From Mobilitalea sp. (GTDB lineage Bacteria; Bacillota_A; Clostridia; Lachnospirales; Lachnospiraceae): a stretch of 11,745 bases of DNA. Within the stretch, counting starts at the first letter, position 1. Every line of letters begins with the position of its first letter. The notes beneath the pieces are model-generated. The model was not told the origin of the DNA and did no database searches. It saw nothing but the letters and a program-made list of their open reading frames with translations. Shown here piece after piece: positions 1 through 11,666 of this stretch. The stretch is taken from NCBI GenBank assembly GCA_029974875.1, contig JARKQP010000502.1:1-11745 (forward strand), written 5' to 3'. The position numbers and the translations under genes are program-made.

Positions 1-800
1 TCAAAGCCCAGCTGCCGAAGAGCCGCAGCCATTTTCCCCGTAACGACGGTTCCCGGCTCCGCCCCGAACTCTTCACCCAGGGCAACCCTGACTGCCGGTG
101 CCGTCTGGACAATTACGTACTTATTCTTATTGTTAATAGCATCCCATACCTTTGAAACATTATTCACCTCCGTCAATGCCCCCGTCGGACAGACCGCCAC
201 GCATTGTCCGCAGAAGGTACAGGTGGTCTCATGCATGGGCAGGTTCATGGAGGGTGCGATATAGGTATCAAAACCCCTGTTTATGGCGGAAAGTACATGG
301 ACCGTCTGGACCTCGTTGCACATGGTCTCGCACCTTCTGCACAGGATACATTTATCCATGTTCCTGACAATGGATTTACTGGAGGTGTCCATCGGATGCT
401 TTGCCCGTTCCCCTTTATACTTAATCTCCCGGATGTTCAGCTCTGCTGCCAGGGCCTGCAGCTCGCAGTCCAGGTTCTTTTCACAGACCAGGCAATCCTT
501 CGGATGGTTGGAAAGCAGCAGCTCCAGCACTACCCTCCGCGCTTTGATGCATCTTATGGTATTTGTCCGCACTACCATGCCCTCCGTTACGGGAGTCGCA
601 CAGGAGGGTGCAAGATTTCTTCTTCCTTCCACCTCAACAACGCATACACGGCAGGAGGCTGCCTTATTTACCATTTTCATATTATCCAGGTTCAGATGGC
701 AGAGGGTCGGTATCCTGATATCTAATTTTTTTGCTGCTTCCAGTATCGTACTGCCTTCCTCTACGGAAACCTTTTGGTTATTAATTGTAAGATTTATCAT
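1..800 (-). CDS. hndD: NAD(P)-linked [FeFe]-hydrogenase catalytic subunit HndD (3' part outside window)
   Basis: This is the N-terminal 266 residues of the catalytic subunit of a multimeric [FeFe]-hydrogenase, reading leftwards off the window edge. Residues 1-75 form a plant-type [2Fe-2S] ferredoxin domain (C34, C50, C53, C67). Next is the His-Cys cluster motif (H99, C103, C106, C112), then two [4Fe-4S] motifs (C151/154/157/161 and C194/197/200/204). The hydrogenase domain begins near residue 228 (VIVQTAPAVRVALGEEFG). The three H-cluster Cys motifs would lie beyond the edge and cannot be checked. This N-terminal layout is that of HndD and other group A hydrogenases. It follows hndA-hndB-hndC, which should deliver NAD(P)H-derived electrons, probably with ferredoxin in a bifurcating reaction (inferred from the family). 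The start is uncertain. ATG at 798-800 lies 13 nt from the GGAGG at 814-818, and an in-frame GTG at 801-803 lies 10 nt from it. The upstream gap is the hairpin array. Confidence 0.93.
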   Translation of the reverse strand, partial: MINLTINNQKVSVEEGSTILEAAKKLDIRIPTLCHLNLDNMKMVNKAASCRVCVVEVEGRRNLAPSCATPVTEGMVVRTNTIRCIKARRVVLELLLSNHPKDCLVCEKNLDCELQALAAELNIREIKYKGERAKHPMDTSSKSIVRNMDKCILCRRCETMCNEVQTVHVLSAINRGFDTYIAPSMNLPMHETTCTFCGQCVAVCPTGALTEVNNVSKVWDAINNKNKYVIVQTAPAVRVALGEEFGAEPGTVVTGKMAAALRQLGF

Positions 801-812
801 CACTATTTATAA

Positions 813-858
813 TCCTCCTGATACCGTTTTTTTCATCAGGAGGATTTTTCCTCCTGAT
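813..858 (-). promoter_or_regulatory. Alternative pairings around the hndD Shine-Dalgarno site
   Basis: The hndD ribosome binding site lies in ATCAGGAGGA (813-822, read on the minus strand), which is a half copy of the array unit. The preceding unit (835-858) ends in TCCTCCTGAT. That arm can close its own 10-bp hairpin with the 5' arm of its unit. It can equally form a 10-bp helix with the ribosome binding site across a 12-nt A-rich loop. The two pairings exclude each other, so the site can be open or masked. That arrangement is read directly from the sequence. That it regulates HndD output is inference, and no ligand or protein partner is apparent. Confidence 0.5.
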
Positions 859-991
859 AACGCTTTTTTATCAAGATGATTTTCCTCTTGATAACATTTT
901 TCCATCAAAATGATTTTCCTCTTGATAACATTTTTTCATCAAGATGATCTTCCTCTTGATAACGGTTTTCCATCAGGAGGGTTTCCCTCCT
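813..991 (-). repeat. Tandem array of 34-35 nt hairpin units between hndC and hndD
   Basis: Almost the whole hndC-hndD gap consists of diverged copies of one unit, starting at about 835, 870, 904, 938 and 972, plus a half copy at 813-822. The period is 34-35 nt. On the minus (mRNA) strand most copies fold on themselves. The copies at 870-892 and 938-960 have 7-bp stems ATCAAGA/TCTTGAT. Copy 904-926 has the same stem with one G-U pair. Copy 835-858 has a perfect 10-bp stem (ATCAGGAGGA/TCCTCCTGAT) with an AAAA loop. Copy 975-991 has AGGAGGG/CCCTCCT with a 3-nt loop and begins 4 nt after the hndC stop codon. Between copies, A-U pairs change to G-C in both arms, so pairing is kept. Units are joined by A-rich linkers. 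The period is not a multiple of three, so the array does not encode a repeated peptide. Its function is unknown. It could act in mRNA processing, stability or translation of hndD. Confidence 0.9.
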
Positions 992-995
992 TTCC

Positions 996-2789
996 TTAGC
1001 GTTTTTCAATGGCACTGAATTTACACTTATTAAAGCATGCTCCGCATTTAATACATTTGGACTGGTCTATTTCGTGAACCGTCTTCAGCTCACCAGAAAT
1101 ACAGCTTACCGGACATACCCTTGCACAGGCTGTACAGCCGATACATTTATCCGGCAAGATATAGTAGGAAAGCAGTGAGGTACAGACCCCTGCCGGACAT
1201 CTCTTGTCCCTGACATGGGCCAGGTATTCCTCACGGAAATATTTCAAGGTGCTCAGGATCGGATTGGGAGCGGTCTGGCCAAGGCCGCAGAGTGAGGTAT
1301 CCTTAATGACTTCCCCTAGCTCCTCCAGATCCTCCAGATCCTCCTCCGTACCATTCCCGGAGGTGATTTTCTCTAATATCTCCAGCAGCCGCTTATTGCC
1401 TACGCGGCAGGAGGTACACTTGCCACAGGATTCATCTACCGTGAACTCCAGATAGAACTTAGCGATGTCTACCATACAGTTATCCTCGTCCATGACAATC
1501 ATACCGCCGGAGCCCATCATGGATCCGATGCTGCTTAAGGATTCATAGTCAATGGCGATGTCCAGGTTCTCCTGTGTGATACAGCCGCCGGAGGGTCCTC
1601 CGGTCTGCACGGCCTTGAATCCTTTTCCATTCTTAAGTCCTCCTCCGATATCAAAGATGACATCCCGGAGCGTAATCCCCATCGGAACCTCAACCAGACC
1701 CACATTATTTACTTTACCTGCCAATGCAAAAACCTTTGTCCCCGGGGATTTCTCGGTTCCTATCTGCCGGAACCAGTCTGCCCCCTTTAAGAATATCGGG
1801 GGGATGTTTGCCAGGGTTTCCACGTTGTTAACACAGGTGGGCCTGGCCCATACGCCGCTTTCCGCCGGGAAGGGAGGCTTTGTCGTAGGCTCACCCCTCT
1901 CTCCCTGGATGGAGTTGATCAGGGCCGTCTCTTCCCCGCACACGAAGGCTCCGGCACCATACCTTAATTCAATGTCAAAGTTAAAGCCTGTCCCCAGGAT
2001 GTCCTGTCCCAGCAGCCCCAGCTCCCTGGCCTGTGCAATGGCGATTTCCAGCCTGCTGATGGCAAGGGGATACTCTGCCCTTATGTAAATATAGCCATGC
2101 TCCGCACCAATGGCATAGCCGGCAATAGCCATGGCCTCCAGGACAGAATGGGGATCGCCTTCTAAAATGGATCTGTCCATAAAGGCTCCCGGATCACCTT
2201 CATCTGCGTTGCAGATGATGTATTTCTCCTCTCCCTTGCTCTGGCTGGCATATTTCCATTTGAGGCCGGTGGGGAAACCGCCGCCGCCCCTTCCCCGGAG
2301 CCCAGATTGGATTACGGTTTCGATTACATCCCGCCTGCTCATCCCGGTCAGGCACCCCGCGAGGGCCTGATAGCCGTCTGCTGCCAGACATTCATTAATA
2401 TCCTCAGGATTGATAAACCCGCAGTTCCTCAAAGCAATACGGACCTGCTTCTTATTGAAGGGAAGGTTCTTCTGACCCTCCAGCTTCGTCTTTAGGTTCG
2501 GCTCCACATAGAGGAGACGCTGGACCTGGCGCCCTTTTATCACATGCTCTGCTATAATTTCTTCCGCATCCTCCGGCTTCACCGTTACATAGAACACATC
2601 ATCCGGATACACCTTAACAATGGGTCCCTTTTCGCAGAAGCCAAAGCATCCGGTAATAACCACCTCTACTTCATTGGAAATGCCGTACTTCTTTATATAC
2701 TCGTTTAATTTGTCCACCAGCTTCAGGCTCTCGGAGGAGGTACATCCTGTGCCGCCGCAAACCAGCAGGTGCATTCTGTATTTTCCCAT
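996..2789 (-). CDS. hndC: NAD(P)H-oxidising flavoprotein subunit HndC (NuoF-like)
   Basis: A 597-residue diaphorase subunit of the multimeric hydrogenase. It should bind FMN and NAD(P)H and pass electrons through Fe-S clusters toward HndD. An N-terminal thioredoxin-like [2Fe-2S] domain has C11, C16, C48 and C52. The NuoF core follows, with the nucleotide-binding GRGGGGFP at 166-173, the FMN-site NADEGDPGA at 194-202, and GAGAFVCGEE near 278-287. An SLBB-like segment lies at about 350-400. The NuoF [4Fe-4S] ligands are C455, C458, C461 and C501. The C-terminus adds a two-cluster ferredoxin domain (C549/552/555/559 and C579/582/585/589). This domain order and length match HndC and the HydB subunits of bifurcating hydrogenases, and are longer than plain NuoF. 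The ribosome binding site GGGAGG lies 7 nt before the ATG, and the gene starts 18 nt after hndB ends. NAD and NADP specificity cannot be distinguished by eye. Confidence 0.96.
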   Translation of the reverse strand: MGKYRMHLLVCGGTGCTSSESLKLVDKLNEYIKKYGISNEVEVVITGCFGFCEKGPIVKVYPDDVFYVTVKPEDAEEIIAEHVIKGRQVQRLLYVEPNLKTKLEGQKNLPFNKKQVRIALRNCGFINPEDINECLAADGYQALAGCLTGMSRRDVIETVIQSGLRGRGGGGFPTGLKWKYASQSKGEEKYIICNADEGDPGAFMDRSILEGDPHSVLEAMAIAGYAIGAEHGYIYIRAEYPLAISRLEIAIAQARELGLLGQDILGTGFNFDIELRYGAGAFVCGEETALINSIQGERGEPTTKPPFPAESGVWARPTCVNNVETLANIPPIFLKGADWFRQIGTEKSPGTKVFALAGKVNNVGLVEVPMGITLRDVIFDIGGGLKNGKGFKAVQTGGPSGGCITQENLDIAIDYESLSSIGSMMGSGGMIVMDEDNCMVDIAKFYLEFTVDESCGKCTSCRVGNKRLLEILEKITSGNGTEEDLEDLEELGEVIKDTSLCGLGQTAPNPILSTLKYFREEYLAHVRDKRCPAGVCTSLLSYYILPDKCIGCTACARVCPVSCISGELKTVHEIDQSKCIKCGACFNKCKFSAIEKR

Positions 2790-2807: not shown

Positions 2808-3197
2808 CTATTTTTCAAATGATTTGGCTATAATTGCATTCTGGAGCAGGCGCCCATTCATAATGTGTTCCTTCACGATCTCCCTGGCTCTTTCCTCATC
2901 CACATGTCCATAGATAACCGAGGGCATATCCTTGCTGACAACTTCAATGATCGGTTCCTCTGCGCAATAGCCCATACAGCCGGTCTGGGTTACGGAGATG
3001 TTGGGAATGTTCTGTTTTGCGATCTCATCAATAATCGCCCGCATGGTTTCTCTCGCCCCGCTTGCAATTCCGCAGGTAGCCATTCCGACCCGGATGATGA
3101 TCTTGTCCTCCGATTCCGCCGTAGCCCTCAGATCAATCCTTGCCTTGGCAGCCTCCCTTATTTTCTGAAGCTCTTCCATGGATTTTAATTTGTTCAT
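2808..3197 (-). CDS. hndB: HndB-like [2Fe-2S] ferredoxin-fold subunit
   Basis: A 129-residue soluble protein with the thioredoxin-like ferredoxin fold found in HndB of NADP-reducing hydrogenases. Charged helical residues 1-30 precede the core. The core has C42 in GMATCGIASGAR, then C74 and C78 in TGCMGYC. Only three cysteines are present, because the first motif has one Cys where NuoE-like proteins have two. If a [2Fe-2S] cluster is bound, the fourth ligand is unclear. The GIASGAR motif looks typical of the HndB family rather than a defect, though this is from memory. Its likely role is an electron-transfer or structural subunit beside HndC, whose N-terminal domain is related. The ribosome binding site AGGAGG lies 7 nt before the ATG and overlaps the hndA stop codon, with an 11-nt gap, which suggests translational coupling. 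Confidence 0.9.
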   Translation of the reverse strand: MNKLKSMEELQKIREAAKARIDLRATAESEDKIIIRVGMATCGIASGARETMRAIIDEIAKQNIPNISVTQTGCMGYCAEEPIIEVVSKDMPSVIYGHVDEERAREIVKEHIMNGRLLQNAIIAKSFEK

Positions 3198-3208
3198 ATG
3201 GTAACCTC

Positions 3209-3682
3209 CTACACATATTCCGCAATAATTTGCTTCACCTGGTCAACTTCCACTCTTCCATATACCCTGTCATTAATCATAACCACCGGGGCAAGGCCGC
3301 AGGCGCCGATGCACCGCAGTCCTTCCAGCGTAAACTTCATATCCGATCTGGTTTCTCCTGCCTTAATCTTCAATTCCTTTTCAAATTCCTTCATGACCGC
3401 ATCCGCCCCACGGACAAAGCAGGCGGTGCCAAGACAGACATTGACCACATATTTTCCCCGCTCCGTGGTTGTGAAATAGGAATAAAAGCTGATTACACCG
3501 TAGACCTTGGAACTGGGGATATCCATTGCTTCCGATATATACAATATGATATCATCCGATAAATAACCATATAGGTTCTGCGCCTTATGAAGTACCGCAA
3601 TCAGCGCACCTCTTCTGTCTGCAATGCTGTCGATGAACTTCTGGAGCTCTTCAAACTTAAACTGCGTATCACTACTTGCCAT
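3209..3682 (-). CDS. hndA: NuoE-like [2Fe-2S] subunit HndA
   Basis: A 157-residue first gene of the hydrogenase operon, homologous to the 24-kDa NuoE subunit of complex I. An N-terminal helical region (about 1-70, including RRGALIAVLHKAQNLYGYL) precedes a thioredoxin-like domain. The [2Fe-2S] ligands are C83 and C88 (CLGTAC) and C124 and C128 (CIGAC), the classic NuoE spacing of C-x4-C and C-x3-C. It should relay electrons to or from the FMN subunit HndC. The start at ATG 3680-3682 is chosen because AAAGGAGG ends 7-8 nt upstream. A longer reading from TTG at 3686-3688 would sit almost on top of the ribosome binding site. A good extended -10 promoter lies about 35 nt upstream, consistent with this being the operon's first gene. 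Confidence 0.95.
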   Translation of the reverse strand: MASSDTQFKFEELQKFIDSIADRRGALIAVLHKAQNLYGYLSDDIILYISEAMDIPSSKVYGVISFYSYFTTTERGKYVVNVCLGTACFVRGADAVMKEFEKELKIKAGETRSDMKFTLEGLRCIGACGLAPVVMINDRVYGRVEVDQVKQIIAEYV

Positions 3683-3714
3683 GAACAAACCTCCTTTTGC
3701 TTTATAACATCTGC

Positions 3715-4134: not shown

Positions 4135-5604
4135 CTACAGCTGCAGCTGCAATTCAGCATCATGGCCAAAGACGGAAACAGAATCCCTGATCGTCTTCTC
4201 AATCGCCTGATGTCCATAAGCATCCACCAGGTTCTTATCCTTCGAGCTATGGGAGAGACAGGCCGGCCCGCCGATACAGCCGCCTTCGCATATCATACCT
4301 TCAATAAAGTTCTCCGAAAGCAGACCCTTACTGGCCTTTAACAGGGCTGTCTTGCATTCGGAGATTCCATTGCAGACCAGTGGCTTACAGGTGAACTGCT
4401 CCCCGGTTACCCCATGCTCCTTCAACGCCTGCTCTACTGCAGTGGATAATCCACCGGAGCGGGCAAAGATCCGCCCAAAGTAGGAGGCATTGTCAAGGGG
4501 CTCTTCCTCCAGGGCTTCCAGCTCAATGTTTTTCGCATTAAACATTGCCTGCATCTCCTCAAAGGTCAGGACACAGTCGACATACTCCCTGACGCTCTCC
4601 TCCTGGCGTTCCGCCTTTTTGGCAACACAGGGTCCAAGGAATACAACCTTGCCATTCGGGTCATTCTGCTTGATGATCTTTGCAATCTGCGCCATGGGTG
4701 AGAGATTATGGGAAATGTTATCTGCCACTGCCGGATAATTCTTACGAATATAGCGTACGAAGGCCGGGCAACAGGAGGAAGTAAGGAAGCCTTTCTCCAC
4801 AAGCTCCAGCGCTTCCATGGAAGCAACCATGTCTGCCCCAAGGGCCGCTTCGACTACGGAATGGAAGCCAATCTTTTTCAGGCCGGCGACCACCTTTCCC
4901 GTAGTAATCTCCGGCAGGCTTGCATATTGGCTGACCAGGGACGGCGCAACGACTGCATATATTTTAAATACCCGGTTGTCATCGGACTCACGGATCATAC
5001 GGACCGCCTGTGTTATGTAGGATTTATCCATGATCGCTCCAAAGGGGCAATGATATACGCAGGCTCCGCAGGAGATACATTTTTCATCCTTGATGACAGC
5101 CTTCTTCGAATCCTTATCAATGGATATGGCATTCACTTTACAGGCATTTACACAGGGTCTTGTATGCTTAACGATTGCGCTGTAGGAACAGACTGCAACG
5201 CATTTGCCGCATTCCACGCATTTGACCTTATCTATGACCGCGCGCCGGTCTATGATGGTAATTGCATCCTTGGGACAGGCATTGACACATTTGTGTGCAA
5301 TACATCCGCGGCAGGATGGGGTCACCTGTATTCCGTCTACGGGACATTCATCACAGGCAATTTTTAATACCTCTACCATATTAGGGTTCTTCGGATCCCC
5401 GCCCAGGGCCAGCTTTACACGTTCGTTTACAATTGCTCTTTCCTTATAGATACAGCACCTCATCCTCGCCTTTCCTTCCGGGACGATGATACCCGCCACA
5501 TCCATCAAATTCTCTGCCGTCAGTGAATTGTCAAAGGCAAGCTTTGCGATCTCACTGAGCACTTCATATTTTAACTGTTGAACATCATTATCAAAATAAG
5601 CCAT
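4135..5604 (-). CDS. Group B monomeric [FeFe]-hydrogenase
   Basis: A 489-residue soluble iron hydrogenase with all three H-cluster motifs. TSSCCPAF (275-282) supplies a proton-relay Cys (C278) and a cluster Cys (C279). GPCVAK (324-329) supplies C326. The third motif has C439 and C443 (EGMICEGGC). The SCCPAF form, rather than SCCPGW or SCCPMW, marks group B. The N-terminal half is Cys-rich: C84/C87; C98/101/106/110; C129/132/135/139; C151/C155; and a clear ferredoxin motif C176/179/182/186 ending HCPFGA. Several [4Fe-4S] clusters are therefore likely. There is no [2Fe-2S] plant-type domain as in HndD. Group B enzymes probably exchange electrons with ferredoxin, but their physiological role is not settled. 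GGAG lies 8 nt before the ATG. The C-terminal LQLQL comes from a short CAGCTN hexamer repeat. The gene stands alone between two terminators, upstream of hndABCD on the same strand. Confidence 0.94.
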   Translation of the reverse strand: MAYFDNDVQQLKYEVLSEIAKLAFDNSLTAENLMDVAGIIVPEGKARMRCCIYKERAIVNERVKLALGGDPKNPNMVEVLKIACDECPVDGIQVTPSCRGCIAHKCVNACPKDAITIIDRRAVIDKVKCVECGKCVAVCSYSAIVKHTRPCVNACKVNAISIDKDSKKAVIKDEKCISCGACVYHCPFGAIMDKSYITQAVRMIRESDDNRVFKIYAVVAPSLVSQYASLPEITTGKVVAGLKKIGFHSVVEAALGADMVASMEALELVEKGFLTSSCCPAFVRYIRKNYPAVADNISHNLSPMAQIAKIIKQNDPNGKVVFLGPCVAKKAERQEESVREYVDCVLTFEEMQAMFNAKNIELEALEEEPLDNASYFGRIFARSGGLSTAVEQALKEHGVTGEQFTCKPLVCNGISECKTALLKASKGLLSENFIEGMICEGGCIGGPACLSHSSKDKNLVDAYGHQAIEKTIRDSVSVFGHDAELQLQL

Positions 5605-5663: not shown

Positions 5664-5701
5664 AAAAAAAGCATACTGTTACCAGCACAGTATGCTTTTT
5701 T
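5664..5701 (-). terminator. Intrinsic terminator after the lysR-type gene (bidirectional shape)
   Basis: A perfect 9-bp stem (GCATACTGT at 5671-5679 with ACAGTATGC at 5687-5695) has a 7-nt loop and is flanked by A6-7 on one side and T6 on the other. On the minus strand it ends in a run of seven T, 27 nt after the regulator's stop codon. It could work in both directions. It isolates the group B hydrogenase from read-through of the sugar operon and regulator. Confidence 0.9.
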
Positions 5702-6833: not shown

Positions 6834-7814
6834 TTAAAGCCTGGTAATGCAAAACGAATAGGTAATATCCTTCCCGGCATCAATATGGTATGCCGGCTCA
6901 ACATCCGCTCCCCAGCTGTTGATCCCGCCGACTCCCCTGACCGCACCAAGAATTGATATCACCGTCCTCCTTGCGGCCGGCAGCTCCTCCTGATGGGTGG
7001 CATTTTCCAGCTCCTGCGCTGTATAGGGAATACAGGAAAATGCGAAATCCCGGCCAATTCCCGAGAACCGGATTCCAAAAGAATCCCCGTCCTTTCTTGA
7101 ATTATCAAGGGTTGAACTGCGGTATACCTCCAGCCACTTTGTGTCCACATGCACATTGCAGTCCTGGGGAACCAGGTAGGGTGTTACAGGCAGCCCCTCC
7201 ACCTCATAGATTCCGGGGATTCCCCCTTCCTTACGGTCTGGATAGGTTTCTCCCGAAATTCCCTCATACCTGTATTTGGTGGCCTTGGTCGGTACAATGA
7301 AACGCATGCCGAACACCGGCAGCTCCGGCAAGCCCGCCCTTCCATGATAATGCACCGCCACTTCAATCTCTCCGCCCGGGCTTACCTCATAGGTAACCCC
7401 TACGGTTACAGCCGGTACTGTGATTGTCTGATAGGTATATCCTATCTTCACCTTATGCGCCGTTTCCTTCCCGGAATACCGGTTATTTACCGGTGGCAGT
7501 GGCAGCTCTATTTTTTCATCCTCCACAAAAACCCCGATCCCGATACAGTCGATGAACATGTCGGCACCAAGCCATATTCCCGATTTTAAGGGGAATTTAT
7601 TCCCCCTGTCATTATCCGTGGTTGCCCGCCAAAAGGTTGGCTTCGGCACACGGTAGAGCCATTCCCTTCCGTCCATGACCAAAGATTCCGGCCCGCCAAA
7701 TTGATAGGAAAAGATATAATCAAAGTCCTTTCCATGGACACCCAGGGTACAGTCCCCGTAAACAAGCCGGAGTACCTCTTTCTCCGGATTTTCCTCCCTA
7801 GCTGTATAATCCAT
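6834..7814 (-). CDS. lacM: Beta-galactosidase small subunit LacM
   Basis: A 326-residue protein corresponding to the C-terminal third of a LacZ-type GH2 beta-galactosidase. It contains the linking beta-sandwich and the beta-galactosidase small-chain domain. Recognisable family motifs are FWRATTDNDRG (61-71), LPVFGMRF (165-172), YPDRKEGG (191-198) and GVGGINSWGAD (295-304), where W301 matches the substrate-stacking Trp of E. coli LacZ. It carries no catalytic Glu and should act only as a complex with LacL. The start codon lies inside the end of lacL, in another frame, with a 17-nt overlap and an extended AGGAGGTGA ribosome binding site inside lacL. Split LacL/LacM enzymes of about this size are known from lactobacilli and Leuconostoc, so this is a natural heterodimer design and not a broken lacZ. 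No strong terminator is seen in the 110 nt after it. Confidence 0.93.
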   Translation of the reverse strand: MDYTAREENPEKEVLRLVYGDCTLGVHGKDFDYIFSYQFGGPESLVMDGREWLYRVPKPTFWRATTDNDRGNKFPLKSGIWLGADMFIDCIGIGVFVEDEKIELPLPPVNNRYSGKETAHKVKIGYTYQTITVPAVTVGVTYEVSPGGEIEVAVHYHGRAGLPELPVFGMRFIVPTKATKYRYEGISGETYPDRKEGGIPGIYEVEGLPVTPYLVPQDCNVHVDTKWLEVYRSSTLDNSRKDGDSFGIRFSGIGRDFAFSCIPYTAQELENATHQEELPAARRTVISILGAVRGVGGINSWGADVEPAYHIDAGKDITYSFCITRL

Positions 7815-9684
7815 AAAAATATCTCACCTCCTGCATGGCCGGCTTTTCCGTTCTGTCGGCGAATAGGATTCCATTTCCTGAAAATTCATAATCGGAGGGC
7901 CTGTCGTCAAAATCGCCCCCGTAGCGGAGCACTCTTTCTCCGGTTATCTCATCCTTTACATAAAGAGCCTGGTCAATAAAATCCCAGATAAAGCCTCCCT
8001 GATACATATCATACCGGTTAAGGAGCCCGATATAGGATTTCATTCCGCCCAGCGAATTTCCCATGTCATGCATATATTCGCATAAAATAAAGGGCTTTGT
8101 GGGCTCACCCTCCAAATATTCCACTACCTCCTCCGGCGTGGCATACATCCGGCTCTCTACGTCTGAGATGGAGGCTTCATATTTTCTGTTGTGGAACACA
8201 CCTTCATAATGCACCAGACGGCTGTCATCCCTTTCTTTAAAAAAGCGGTTCATCTGCTCCATATTATCCCCCGCATAGGATTCATTCCCAAGGGACCAGA
8301 ACAGGATGGAGGGGTGGTTTTTAAATACCTCAAAATTAGTCCTTGCCCTGTCGATTACCGCCTCCCTCCACTGGGGAAGACTGCCGGGGACATTCCAGGA
8401 GGGCTCTACCCTACCCTGCTTCTGCCAGGAGCCATGGGATTCCAGATTGGTCTCCGCCATCAGATAGATGCCATTTTCATCACACAGATAATACCAGGGG
8501 ATTTGGTTTGGATAGTGGGAGGTCCGGACTGCGTTGATGTTATTCCTAAGAACCGCCCTCATATCCGTTTCCATCTCTTTCCTGCTGATGCACCTCCCCC
8601 GCTCCGCACTCCATTCATGGCGGTTTACACCGTTTAGGATCAGCCGCTTTCCATTTAAAAGAATTACCTTATTCTTGATTTCAATTCGCCGGAATCCGAT
8701 TTTATAAGGCACTATTTCCACCAGCCTGCCAGCTTTATCAAAGACTTCTACCGTCAGGGCGTAAAGGTAGGGGTTATGGTAATGCCAGGGAATGACCTTG
8801 CCAATTGCAGCCGGAGCCAGCTTAACCTCAGGGCTGATACCGGCATGCCGGTCATAGCAGACATTTCCAAGCTTATCCTTCAGCACAATATGGACCTCGC
8901 CAGGCTCCGCCAGATAGGATAGCTTTAATTCCATCGCCAGGCTGCCGGAAGCATTATCCTCATTCAAACAGGCTTTTACCCACAGATCCTCCACATGGAT
9001 ATCCGGCTTTGCATAAAGCGTAACATCCCGGAAGATTCCGAAGAACCGGAAGAAATCCTGATCCTCCAGATAGGCCGCGGTACTCCTCTTATGCACCTCT
9101 ACCGCCAGCAGGTTTCCCTTTTCCCTGATATAGGGAGAAAGGTCAAATTCCGAAGGAGTGAAGCTGTCCTCTGAATAGCCGATGAATTTCCCGTTCAGCC
9201 ACACATACATAGCCTGCTCCACACCTGCAAAGCAGATACCCACTCTCTTTCCCTGCAAGCCCGGTTCCAGGTCAAAGGTCTTAAGGTAGGAGCCTACCGG
9301 GTTATATTCAGCCTGGCTGAAGGAACCTAAGCCCTCAGCGTTCCCTTCCAGACTATAGGCCGGACGCCGGAACACATGCCCTTCCCAGGGATACATGGTA
9401 TTAATATAATGGATTTTATCGTAACCGGCTAATTCGATATGGCCAGGCACCTTGATTTCATCGAATTCTTCCGGGCAAAATTCCTTCTTATAAAATTCAG
9501 ACGGTCTTTCCCCCGCATTAACTGAATAGCGGAATTTCCAGCTTCCATTTAAGGATTGGCACAACGAATTCTCTCCGGACCGGAGCTCTTCCACGCTACA
9601 ATAGAAAGCATGGTCACTATGAGCCGGAAGCTGATTCATGCGAAATATTTCCGGATTATCCAGGTAGCTAAGATCTGCCCTCAT
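7798..9684 (-). CDS. lacL: Beta-galactosidase large subunit LacL (GH2)
   Basis: A 628-residue catalytic subunit that hydrolyses terminal beta-galactosides such as lactose. It covers the sugar-binding domain (about 40-220, including NPVGSY at 128-133), an immunoglobulin-like domain (about 225-335) and the GH2 TIM barrel (about 336-628). NRHEWSAERG (354-363) and RTSHYPN (387-393) are active-site His motifs. E468 in WSLGNES is the acid/base, and E536 in PFILCEYMHDMGNS is the nucleophile, both near the LacZ positions. There is no signal peptide, so it is cytoplasmic. The barrel ends at EVRYFYGLYS, where a full LacZ would continue. The missing part is LacM, encoded in the next frame. The ribosome binding site GGAAGGAG lies 8 nt from the ATG. 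It starts 37 nt after the second permease, so transport and hydrolysis appear co-transcribed. The exact substrate (lactose, galacto-oligosaccharide or a host-glycan fragment) is not evident. Confidence 0.96.
   Translation of the reverse strand: MRADLSYLDNPEIFRMNQLPAHSDHAFYCSVEELRSGENSLCQSLNGSWKFRYSVNAGERPSEFYKKEFCPEEFDEIKVPGHIELAGYDKIHYINTMYPWEGHVFRRPAYSLEGNAEGLGSFSQAEYNPVGSYLKTFDLEPGLQGKRVGICFAGVEQAMYVWLNGKFIGYSEDSFTPSEFDLSPYIREKGNLLAVEVHKRSTAAYLEDQDFFRFFGIFRDVTLYAKPDIHVEDLWVKACLNEDNASGSLAMELKLSYLAEPGEVHIVLKDKLGNVCYDRHAGISPEVKLAPAAIGKVIPWHYHNPYLYALTVEVFDKAGRLVEIVPYKIGFRRIEIKNKVILLNGKRLILNGVNRHEWSAERGRCISRKEMETDMRAVLRNNINAVRTSHYPNQIPWYYLCDENGIYLMAETNLESHGSWQKQGRVEPSWNVPGSLPQWREAVIDRARTNFEVFKNHPSILFWSLGNESYAGDNMEQMNRFFKERDDSRLVHYEGVFHNRKYEASISDVESRMYATPEEVVEYLEGEPTKPFILCEYMHDMGNSLGGMKSYIGLLNRYDMYQGGFIWDFIDQALYVKDEITGERVLRYGGDFDDRPSDYEFSGNGILFADRTEKPAMQEVRYFYGLYS
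7824..7832 (-). promoter_or_regulatory. lacM ribosome binding site inside lacL
   Basis: AGGAGGTGA on the minus strand is a near-perfect anti-16S match, 9 nt before the lacM ATG. It is built from the lacL codons for a conserved Gln-Glu-Val stretch just before its C-terminus. This strong site, together with the 17-nt overlap, indicates independent but coupled initiation of lacM and not ribosomal frameshifting. Confidence 0.85.
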
Positions 9685-11631: not shown

Positions 11632-11666
11632 TGTTATGAGGGTTACGTTTCGTAACCCTCATAACA
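11632..11666 (-). other. Strong intercistronic hairpin after the solute-binding protein gene
   Basis: A perfect 16-bp inverted repeat with a 3-nt loop (arms 11632-11647 and 11651-11666) begins 19 nt after the stop codon of the binding-protein gene. It has no T-run after it on either strand, so it is not a standard intrinsic terminator. Hairpins in this position in sugar ABC operons are known to protect the upstream message and lower downstream expression, giving excess binding protein over permease. That role is inferred here. Confidence 0.75.

Follow-up and report, generated by a model that had tools for sequence, protein, structure and literature searches.

The DNA analysed here (the window) is a stretch of 11,745 nt from a Mobilitalea sp. 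Its minus strand carries a [FeFe]-hydrogenase-like gene, followed by a closely spaced series that runs from a NuoE-like ORF through a small ORF and an hndC-like diaphorase gene into the first part of an hndD-like hydrogenase gene (Table 1). The gaps between the first three genes of this series are just 11 and 18 nt, whereas hndC and hndD are separated by positions 804–995. This larger gap is filled by a tandem repeat with a period of 34, 5.1 copies and 83% matches at positions 813–989 (Tandem Repeats Finder), so the initial annotation, which described a tandem array occupying the hndC–hndD gap of a tight gene cluster, was correct in both respects.

In the mRNA (minus) strand, each unit consists of a Shine-Dalgarno (SD) arm, a short loop, an anti-SD arm and a spacer. 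The consensus of units 2–5 reads, in mRNA sense, ATCARGAGGA, loop, TCMTCYTGAT or close to it, and an A-rich spacer. The GGAGG of the last, incomplete unit is located 10 nt from the GTG at 803 and 13 nt from the ATG at 800, at the hndD start. The array fits the definition of a ribosome-binding-site (RBS) hairpin array used here, namely SD–loop–anti-SD–spacer units of which the last SD lies about 5–12 nt before a start codon. The replacement of A–U by G–C pairs in both arms (ATCAAGA/TCTTGAT to ATCAGGA/TCCTGAT) and a G–U pair in copy 3 that exists only in the sense strand had been noted earlier and are indeed present; to these can be added a G–A mismatch in each of copies 2–4 and the identity of the half copy as the hndD RBS. 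Small upstream ORFs were discarded as an explanation, because the ATGs that occur within the window units (TGATGAAAAA) are missing from most other arrays inspected.

Table 1 Features of the array and of the adjoining genes in the window
Feature	Positions	Strand	Basis or remark
Tandem SD/anti-SD hairpin array, five hairpin units and a terminal half unit	813–991	minus	Tandem Repeats Finder, sequence, fold
SD1 arm, AGGAGGG	985–991	minus	just past hndC stop; equivalent of the native hndD SD in array-less G001 (GGGAGGGAACA-GTG)
Anti-SD arm 1, CCCTCCT, partner of SD1	975–981	minus	sequence, fold
Hairpin unit 2, ATCAAGAGGA ... TCATCTTGAT, one G–A mismatch	938–960 (SD2 960–951, anti2 947–938)	minus	sequence
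Hairpin unit 3, ATCAAGAGGA ... TCATTTTGAT, G–A mismatch and sense-strand G–U	904–926 (SD3 926–917, anti3 913–904)	minus	sequence, fold
Hairpin unit 4, ATCAAGAGGA ... TCATCTTGAT, one G–A mismatch	870–892 (SD4 892–883, anti4 879–870)	minus	sequence
Hairpin unit 5, ATCAGGAGGA-AAAA-TCCTCCTGAT, local (RBS open) hairpin	835–858 (SD5 858–849, anti5 844–835)	minus	predicted −18.5 kcal/mol with two more flanking pairs
Terminal half unit ATCAGGAGGA, the hndD SD	813–822	minus	alternative (RBS masked) hairpin with anti-SD arm 5, predicted −18.5 kcal/mol
hndD-like [FeFe]-hydrogenase subunit, gene start, runs off the window	3–803	minus	ORF; Pfam Fer2_4, NADH-G_4Fe-4S_3, Fe_hyd_lg_C
hndC/NuoF-like diaphorase subunit	996–2789	minus	ORF; Pfam Complex1_51K, NADH_4Fe-4S
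Small ORF without Pfam match	2808–3197	minus	ORF
NuoE-like ORF, named by position	3209–3688	minus	ORF
[FeFe]-hydrogenase-like gene	4135–5604	minus	446 nt upstream of nuoE

The array region as a whole is predicted to fold better than shuffled sequences on the mRNA strand (z −8.05) as well as on the opposite strand (z −7.11). The copy-3 segment is no better than shuffles (z −0.49), and the other five segments have z values of −1.83 to −4.69. No intrinsic terminator, in the sense of a hairpin followed by a U tract, was found on the mRNA strand of 780–1020. Two terminator-like sites on the plus strand of the array region, with 0.2 expected, would agree with the idea that opposite-strand hairpins with T-rich spacers stop incoming transcription. 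However, several other arrays (e.g., L175, L176 and L283) have no long T run in their spacers when inspected by eye, and an SD-type stem at the start codon would be left unexplained, which makes this role very unlikely.

In the nearest relative genome examined, G001, hndD is 98% identical, and the hndC–hndD gap contains only TAAGGAAGGGAGGGAACA ahead of GTGATG. A second genome, G032 (hndD 79% identical), is array-free at this position as well, and the expectation that close relatives would have kept the array was thus not borne out. The equivalent of the native SD of G001 sits at the far end of the window array, so that the array separates the old SD from the start codon and provides a new SD itself. 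Since G032 also lacks the array, a gain in the lineage of the window is the simpler reading and probably the direction of change. When the window was compared by eye with this one G001 site, no flanking direct repeat was seen that could represent the target-site duplication of a MITE or similar transposed element. The best related array in G001 is 81% identical over query positions 75–188 (E 1.2e-22) and belongs to an unrelated gene, which carries DsbD and HMA domains; genomes G014, G029, G032 and G054 gave only weak matches to the window array (best E 0.007). The initial annotation had placed the array at a point where hndC/hndD stoichiometry would matter, and the hndC–hndD gap is indeed the only large one from nuoE to hndD. 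Absence from the site in both relatives and the occurrence of arrays, including related ones, at many unrelated genes nevertheless contradict a conserved device for this stoichiometry and leave hardly any room for one that is specific for these two genes.

To describe the arrays as a family, the strict pattern AGGAGG-(2–10)-CCTCCT-(8–30)-AGGAGG was searched in 61 genomes, 34 of them from the same genus; the set consists mostly of MAGs, some with 4–9% contamination. Matches were obtained in 13 of the 61 genomes, every one of them belonging to the genus, as compared to 1 of 61 with the permuted word AGGTGG. The fraction of 13/34 is a lower bound, because the strict AGGAGG pattern misses the array of G025. 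The latter (contig C107, 3383–3514) is an array of another flavour, GGAGGTGAAATCCTCCATGAAA. The strict matches merge into 45 arrays, and each of the 45 has as its last element an SD a short distance upstream of a start codon, although part of this bias is built in by a pattern that closes on the SD word. Of these array ends, 42 follow the rule that the final SD precedes the start codon of an ORF with 60 codons or more, and three were placed by eye: L164, at a gene that we take to be leuB-like, L165, at a presumably pheS-like gene behind an apparent T-box, and L195 (ilvC). A single hairpin at nusA (L206), which lies away from its RBS, was left out of the count.

The genes behind the arrays are diverse. 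They include ilvC-, pheS-, gyrB-, ileS-, clpX- and tig-like genes, and others, and the Pfam domains found include carbamoyl-phosphate synthase, ketol-acid reductoisomerase, DNA gyrase B, class I tRNA synthetase, ClpX-type AAA, trigger factor, class II fructose-bisphosphate aldolase, phosphopantetheine carrier and CheW; a common function is not apparent. Units resemble each other inside one array and differ from array to array; their loops are short and for the most part rich in A.

A relaxed pattern matched 130 times in G001, versus 18 times when the anti-SD was permuted to CTCCC, a control that itself catches arrays via CCTCCC (14 of the 18 control matches lie in arrays by eye). Permuted words were used as controls since a reversed pattern is not independent, AGGAGGA containing its own reverse. 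Among 40 further G001 sites, drawn from 100 listed of the 130 relaxed matches, 32 passed the RBS rule, as against 29 of 165 for background GGAGG in the same loci. Subtraction of five sites judged to be chance coding matches and addition of three of the eight failures that are gene starts by eye brings the number of gene-start arrays to 30 of 40. Upstream of SD–ATG, CCTCC was found 142 times in G001 versus 70 for CTCCC, and over the 34 genomes 777 versus 392 times (higher in 28, lower in 4 and equal in 2 genomes). Scattering of the same repeats over unrelated sites, which had been named beforehand as an argument against a role at hndD, was thus found in part: the repeats do occur at other G001 genes, but their placement is not random, being mostly at ribosome-binding sites. 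This leads to a different and broader reading than that of an hndC/hndD device.

In the wider family, the strict pattern was found in 17 of 397 genomes, one of which is G001. The other 16, out of 395 family genomes outside the genus, show between one and three matches, and G247 looks as if it had two units in tandem. A scan of 84,980 species with a stricter form of the pattern yielded 68 stretches, 11 of them assigned to genomes of the genus; by rule, eight of these 11 have an ATG and a long ORF behind them, and the other three run on to one. Among the 57 stretches not assigned to the genus, 19 have an ATG and a 60-codon ORF behind the last SD, so that genes preceded by a single SD/anti-SD/SD unit are also found elsewhere. 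By these pattern searches, the array family is concentrated in one genus-level group of Lachnospiraceae. In three Treponema records (L111, L113 and L127), one SD–anti-SD–SD unit each was seen before what is apparently the same gene.

The position of the arrays raises the issue of what the anti-SD arms can pair with. In a set of 39 arrays that takes one per gene and includes the window, the anti-SD arm goes on matching past the final SD for 2.46 positions on average, versus 1.31 in shuffled loci (p 0.0002), whereas for the local SD the run is 0.64 versus 0.61 (p 0.39). For G001 alone (41 loci, leaving out the five chance coding sites and the three gene starts seen only by eye), the runs are 2.05 versus 0.98 at the final SD (p 0.0002) and 0.66 versus 0.41 at the local SD (p 0.0024). 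Position by position over 68 loci, the first base after the final SD is complementary to the anti-SD arm in 56 (shuffled 30.0, p 0.0002), a covariation that may owe much to the copying of repeats; the second is complementary in 56 (shuffled 47.0, p 0.0004; G001 alone p 0.24) and the third in 51 (shuffled 49.0, p 0.17). Seven orthologous leaders were dropped from the 39-array and 68-locus tests. Anti-SD arms and final-SD contexts vary in pairs, as illustrated by GGAGGATT with AATCCTCC and GGAGGCTT with AAGCCTCC. This locus-by-locus match means that the last anti-SD arm could mask the working RBS, and the masking pairing is often a few pairs longer than the hairpin of the anti-SD arm itself.

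A row of SD sequences and hairpins might alternatively protect the mRNA by blocking a 5′ exonuclease, or act as a ribosome standby site that holds the 30S subunit near the start. The duplexes of SD1, SD5 and the final SD of the window with the 16S tail are strong (−12.0 and −10.3 kcal/mol), and in the arrays hairpins are found immediately upstream of the RBS. However, the inner SD arms in the window pair weakly with the 16S tail (−5.9 kcal/mol), SD arms are paired in local hairpins, and the complementarity to bases past the final SD would have no explanation. We therefore consider protection or standby improbable.

The open and masked hairpins of the window are mutually exclusive and have the same predicted energy (−18.5 kcal/mol each). 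For 46 leaders, the masked minus open helix energy has a mean of −1.2 kcal/mol; 25 of the 46 are within 2 kcal, and the local hairpin is favoured in 11. The predicted openness of the final SD in these 46 leaders is 0.19, as compared to 0.40 with shuffled upstream sequences (8 shuffles per leader that keep base composition only). In 12 leaders truncated from the 5′ end, the first unit lowered predicted openness in 10, and further units gave no steady change. This argues against a simple 1/(n+1) rheostat in which copy number would set openness, and that model was rejected.

Since the open and masked states are close in predicted energy, the array is most likely a cis-acting tuner of translation initiation, a dispersed RBS-hairpin repeat that is amplified in place. 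We give this reading, which is built on sequences and folding models, about an even chance. The array is located directly before the start codon, with its last half unit serving as the working SD of the gene. Each anti-SD arm has two possible partners, the SD arm on its 5′ side, giving a local hairpin, or the next SD on its 3′ side, and the choice made by the last anti-SD arm would leave the RBS of the gene open or cover it. During transcription the local hairpins would form first, leaving the RBS open; a later shift of register, or binding of a ribosome or factor to an upstream SD arm, could then free the anti-SD arm that covers the RBS. In this way, the balance of local and shifted pairing would set what fraction of the mRNAs has its RBS open. 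If so, the arrays, with a unit made of an RBS and its own complement and with copies at dozens of genes in one genome, would illustrate how the growth of a repeat can create and distribute translation control, instead of its evolving separately at each gene.

A more elaborate and rather unlikely version is that the occupation of upstream SDs by ribosomes is transmitted along a shifting chain of SD/anti-SD pairings that ends in covering the RBS of the gene itself. With an SD at both ends of every unit, such a repeat could spread between genes and grow in place harmlessly, with translation starts unbroken. If true, it would represent a general and easily evolved layer of translational control over dozens of genes in one lineage.

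The same property could allow growth without regulation. In a neutral or selfish expansion, an SD and a chance inverted copy would be amplified by slippage, template switching or gene conversion, and the result would be tolerated since units end in an SD and the distance to the start codon is preserved. We regard this as a serious rival to tuning and nearly as likely, though its chances fall somewhat short of even. It would account for the likeness of units inside arrays and their difference between arrays, for the diversity of array genes, for the empty hndD site of G001, where the native SD is the equivalent of the first arm of the window array, and for the resemblance of that array to one at an unrelated G001 gene; palindromes, moreover, can persist through template switching. 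The ilvC leaders fit it as well. The gene was found in 32 of the 34 genomes of the genus, and the number of exact hairpins in its leaders (n = 32) ranges from 0 to 5. A tree was built from 31 ilvC genes, leaving out G011, whose ilvC frame is broken, and the two genomes in which ilvC gave no match; at least one exact hairpin is present in 10 of the 31, all within one branch of 20. Hairpin presence requires 7 changes on this tree versus a shuffled mean of 8.7 (54 of 500 shuffles are as low), or 5 changes if three degenerate hairpins are scored as present. Such patchiness indicates frequent gain, loss or growth and a dispensable array. Even if neutral, the arrays would form a mutational niche that is relevant to leader annotation in this group, and the ilvC genes with their varying hairpin number provide a natural test set for the relation between RBS masking and translation. 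In the ilvC leader of G017 (L229), several outer hairpins have arms that have drifted off the SD word and are still paired, e.g., TATAGTATAGGAGAAAATTCTCCTATACTA.

What argues against purely neutral growth is the behaviour of degenerate units, tested with identical leaders dropped. Pairing is retained at 38 of 103 changed left-arm positions versus 26.1 in shuffles (p 0.0004), with 21 double changes versus 11.8; these figures include chance units, and the former also related rows. Pairs that are possible only in the sense strand are in excess, with G–U found over A–C 28 versus 10 times (p 0.005), although most of this excess stems from C-to-T changes in the anti-SD arm (19 versus 3; at A–T pairs 9 versus 6), which would also be expected if the SD arm is conserved. 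Outside the 6-bp core, single pairs are not above shuffles when one unit per locus is taken (42 loci, best p 0.08), and the best value for all 68 units is p 0.013; the run length beyond the core does exceed shuffles. Since the G–U excess can be explained by SD-arm conservation and outer pairs stay at the level of shuffles, selection on RNA structure is suggested, but not proven. Long stems were dropped as a feature of the family, since pairing past the SD core stands out in the window and in some, but not all, G001 arrays.

With respect to known systems, Rfam 15 gave no match at E up to 1 for window positions 600–1300, and no match at the gathering threshold in a set of 20 of the 45 strict array loci. 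A description of tandem SD/anti-SD arrays was not found in searches of open-licence literature. The RBS-hairpin arrays thus apparently form an unnamed family, in line with the earlier impression of RNA hairpins without a family name. Cis regulators that sequester the SD, such as translational riboswitch platforms, RNA thermometers and leader attenuators, use alternative hairpins to expose or cover it. The arrays likewise have alternative SD-covering hairpins, and by prediction and covariation they possess an arm that can pair with the working SD and its surroundings, in competition with another pairing. They differ in the lack of an Rfam match, in having the masking arm inside a repeat with decoy SDs, and in occurring at dozens of unrelated genes in one genome.

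For the pneumococcal BOX and RUP repeats, no tie to SD sequences is known to us. Compared by description, they are likewise short interspersed bacterial repeats (PMC3049150). Tandem repeats in the 5′ UTR of the Moraxella uspA genes also have a variable copy number and lie between promoter and start codon; unlike the arrays they are described as simple tracts of poly-G or AGAT, each at an individual gene, with no SD/anti-SD pairing (PMC4679880). The nearest likeness is with the TAACTGA direct repeats of marine Beggiatoaceae, which are reported to lie right before the start codons of many unrelated genes, including presumably essential ones, to be patchy among genomes and to function, as has been suggested, in translation (MacGregor 2015, PMC4679880). 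A position right before start codons (45/45 strict arrays) and a patchy spread are thus common to both. However, the TAACTGA unit is described there as a word of 7 nt that bears little resemblance to an SD and has no anti-SD arm, before ORFs that mostly have no SD, whereas the window unit is not this heptamer, measuring 34 nt and containing an SD and its complement.

Several other elements were observed in the same material. The leader L165 (G005) has an apparent T-box with a terminator, followed by four SD/anti-SD units and the pheS-like RBS, i.e., two leader elements in series; the T-box was recognized by eye and gave no Rfam match at the gathering threshold. In G024, a different dispersed element, CCTCCCAGTGCCAGTCAAT...ACCACCAGGAGGTAAAT..ATG, is present on many contigs in at least 8 near-identical copies, with GGAGG before the ATG. 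In the window itself, a perfect 15-bp inverted repeat with A/T-run ends at 5665–5701 is terminator-like and lies next to the hydrogenase-like gene; the gene on its other side is presumably LysR-like. One frame at 6834–9684, which we take to be beta-galactosidase-like, is seemingly split into overlapping ORFs (9684–7798 and 7814–6834, minus strand), as by a frameshift or assembly error. Finally, a perfect inverted repeat of 16 bp, closed by a 3-nt loop (TGTTATGAGGGTTACG), is located at 11632–11666, upstream of a permease gene that is presumably sugar-transporter-like.
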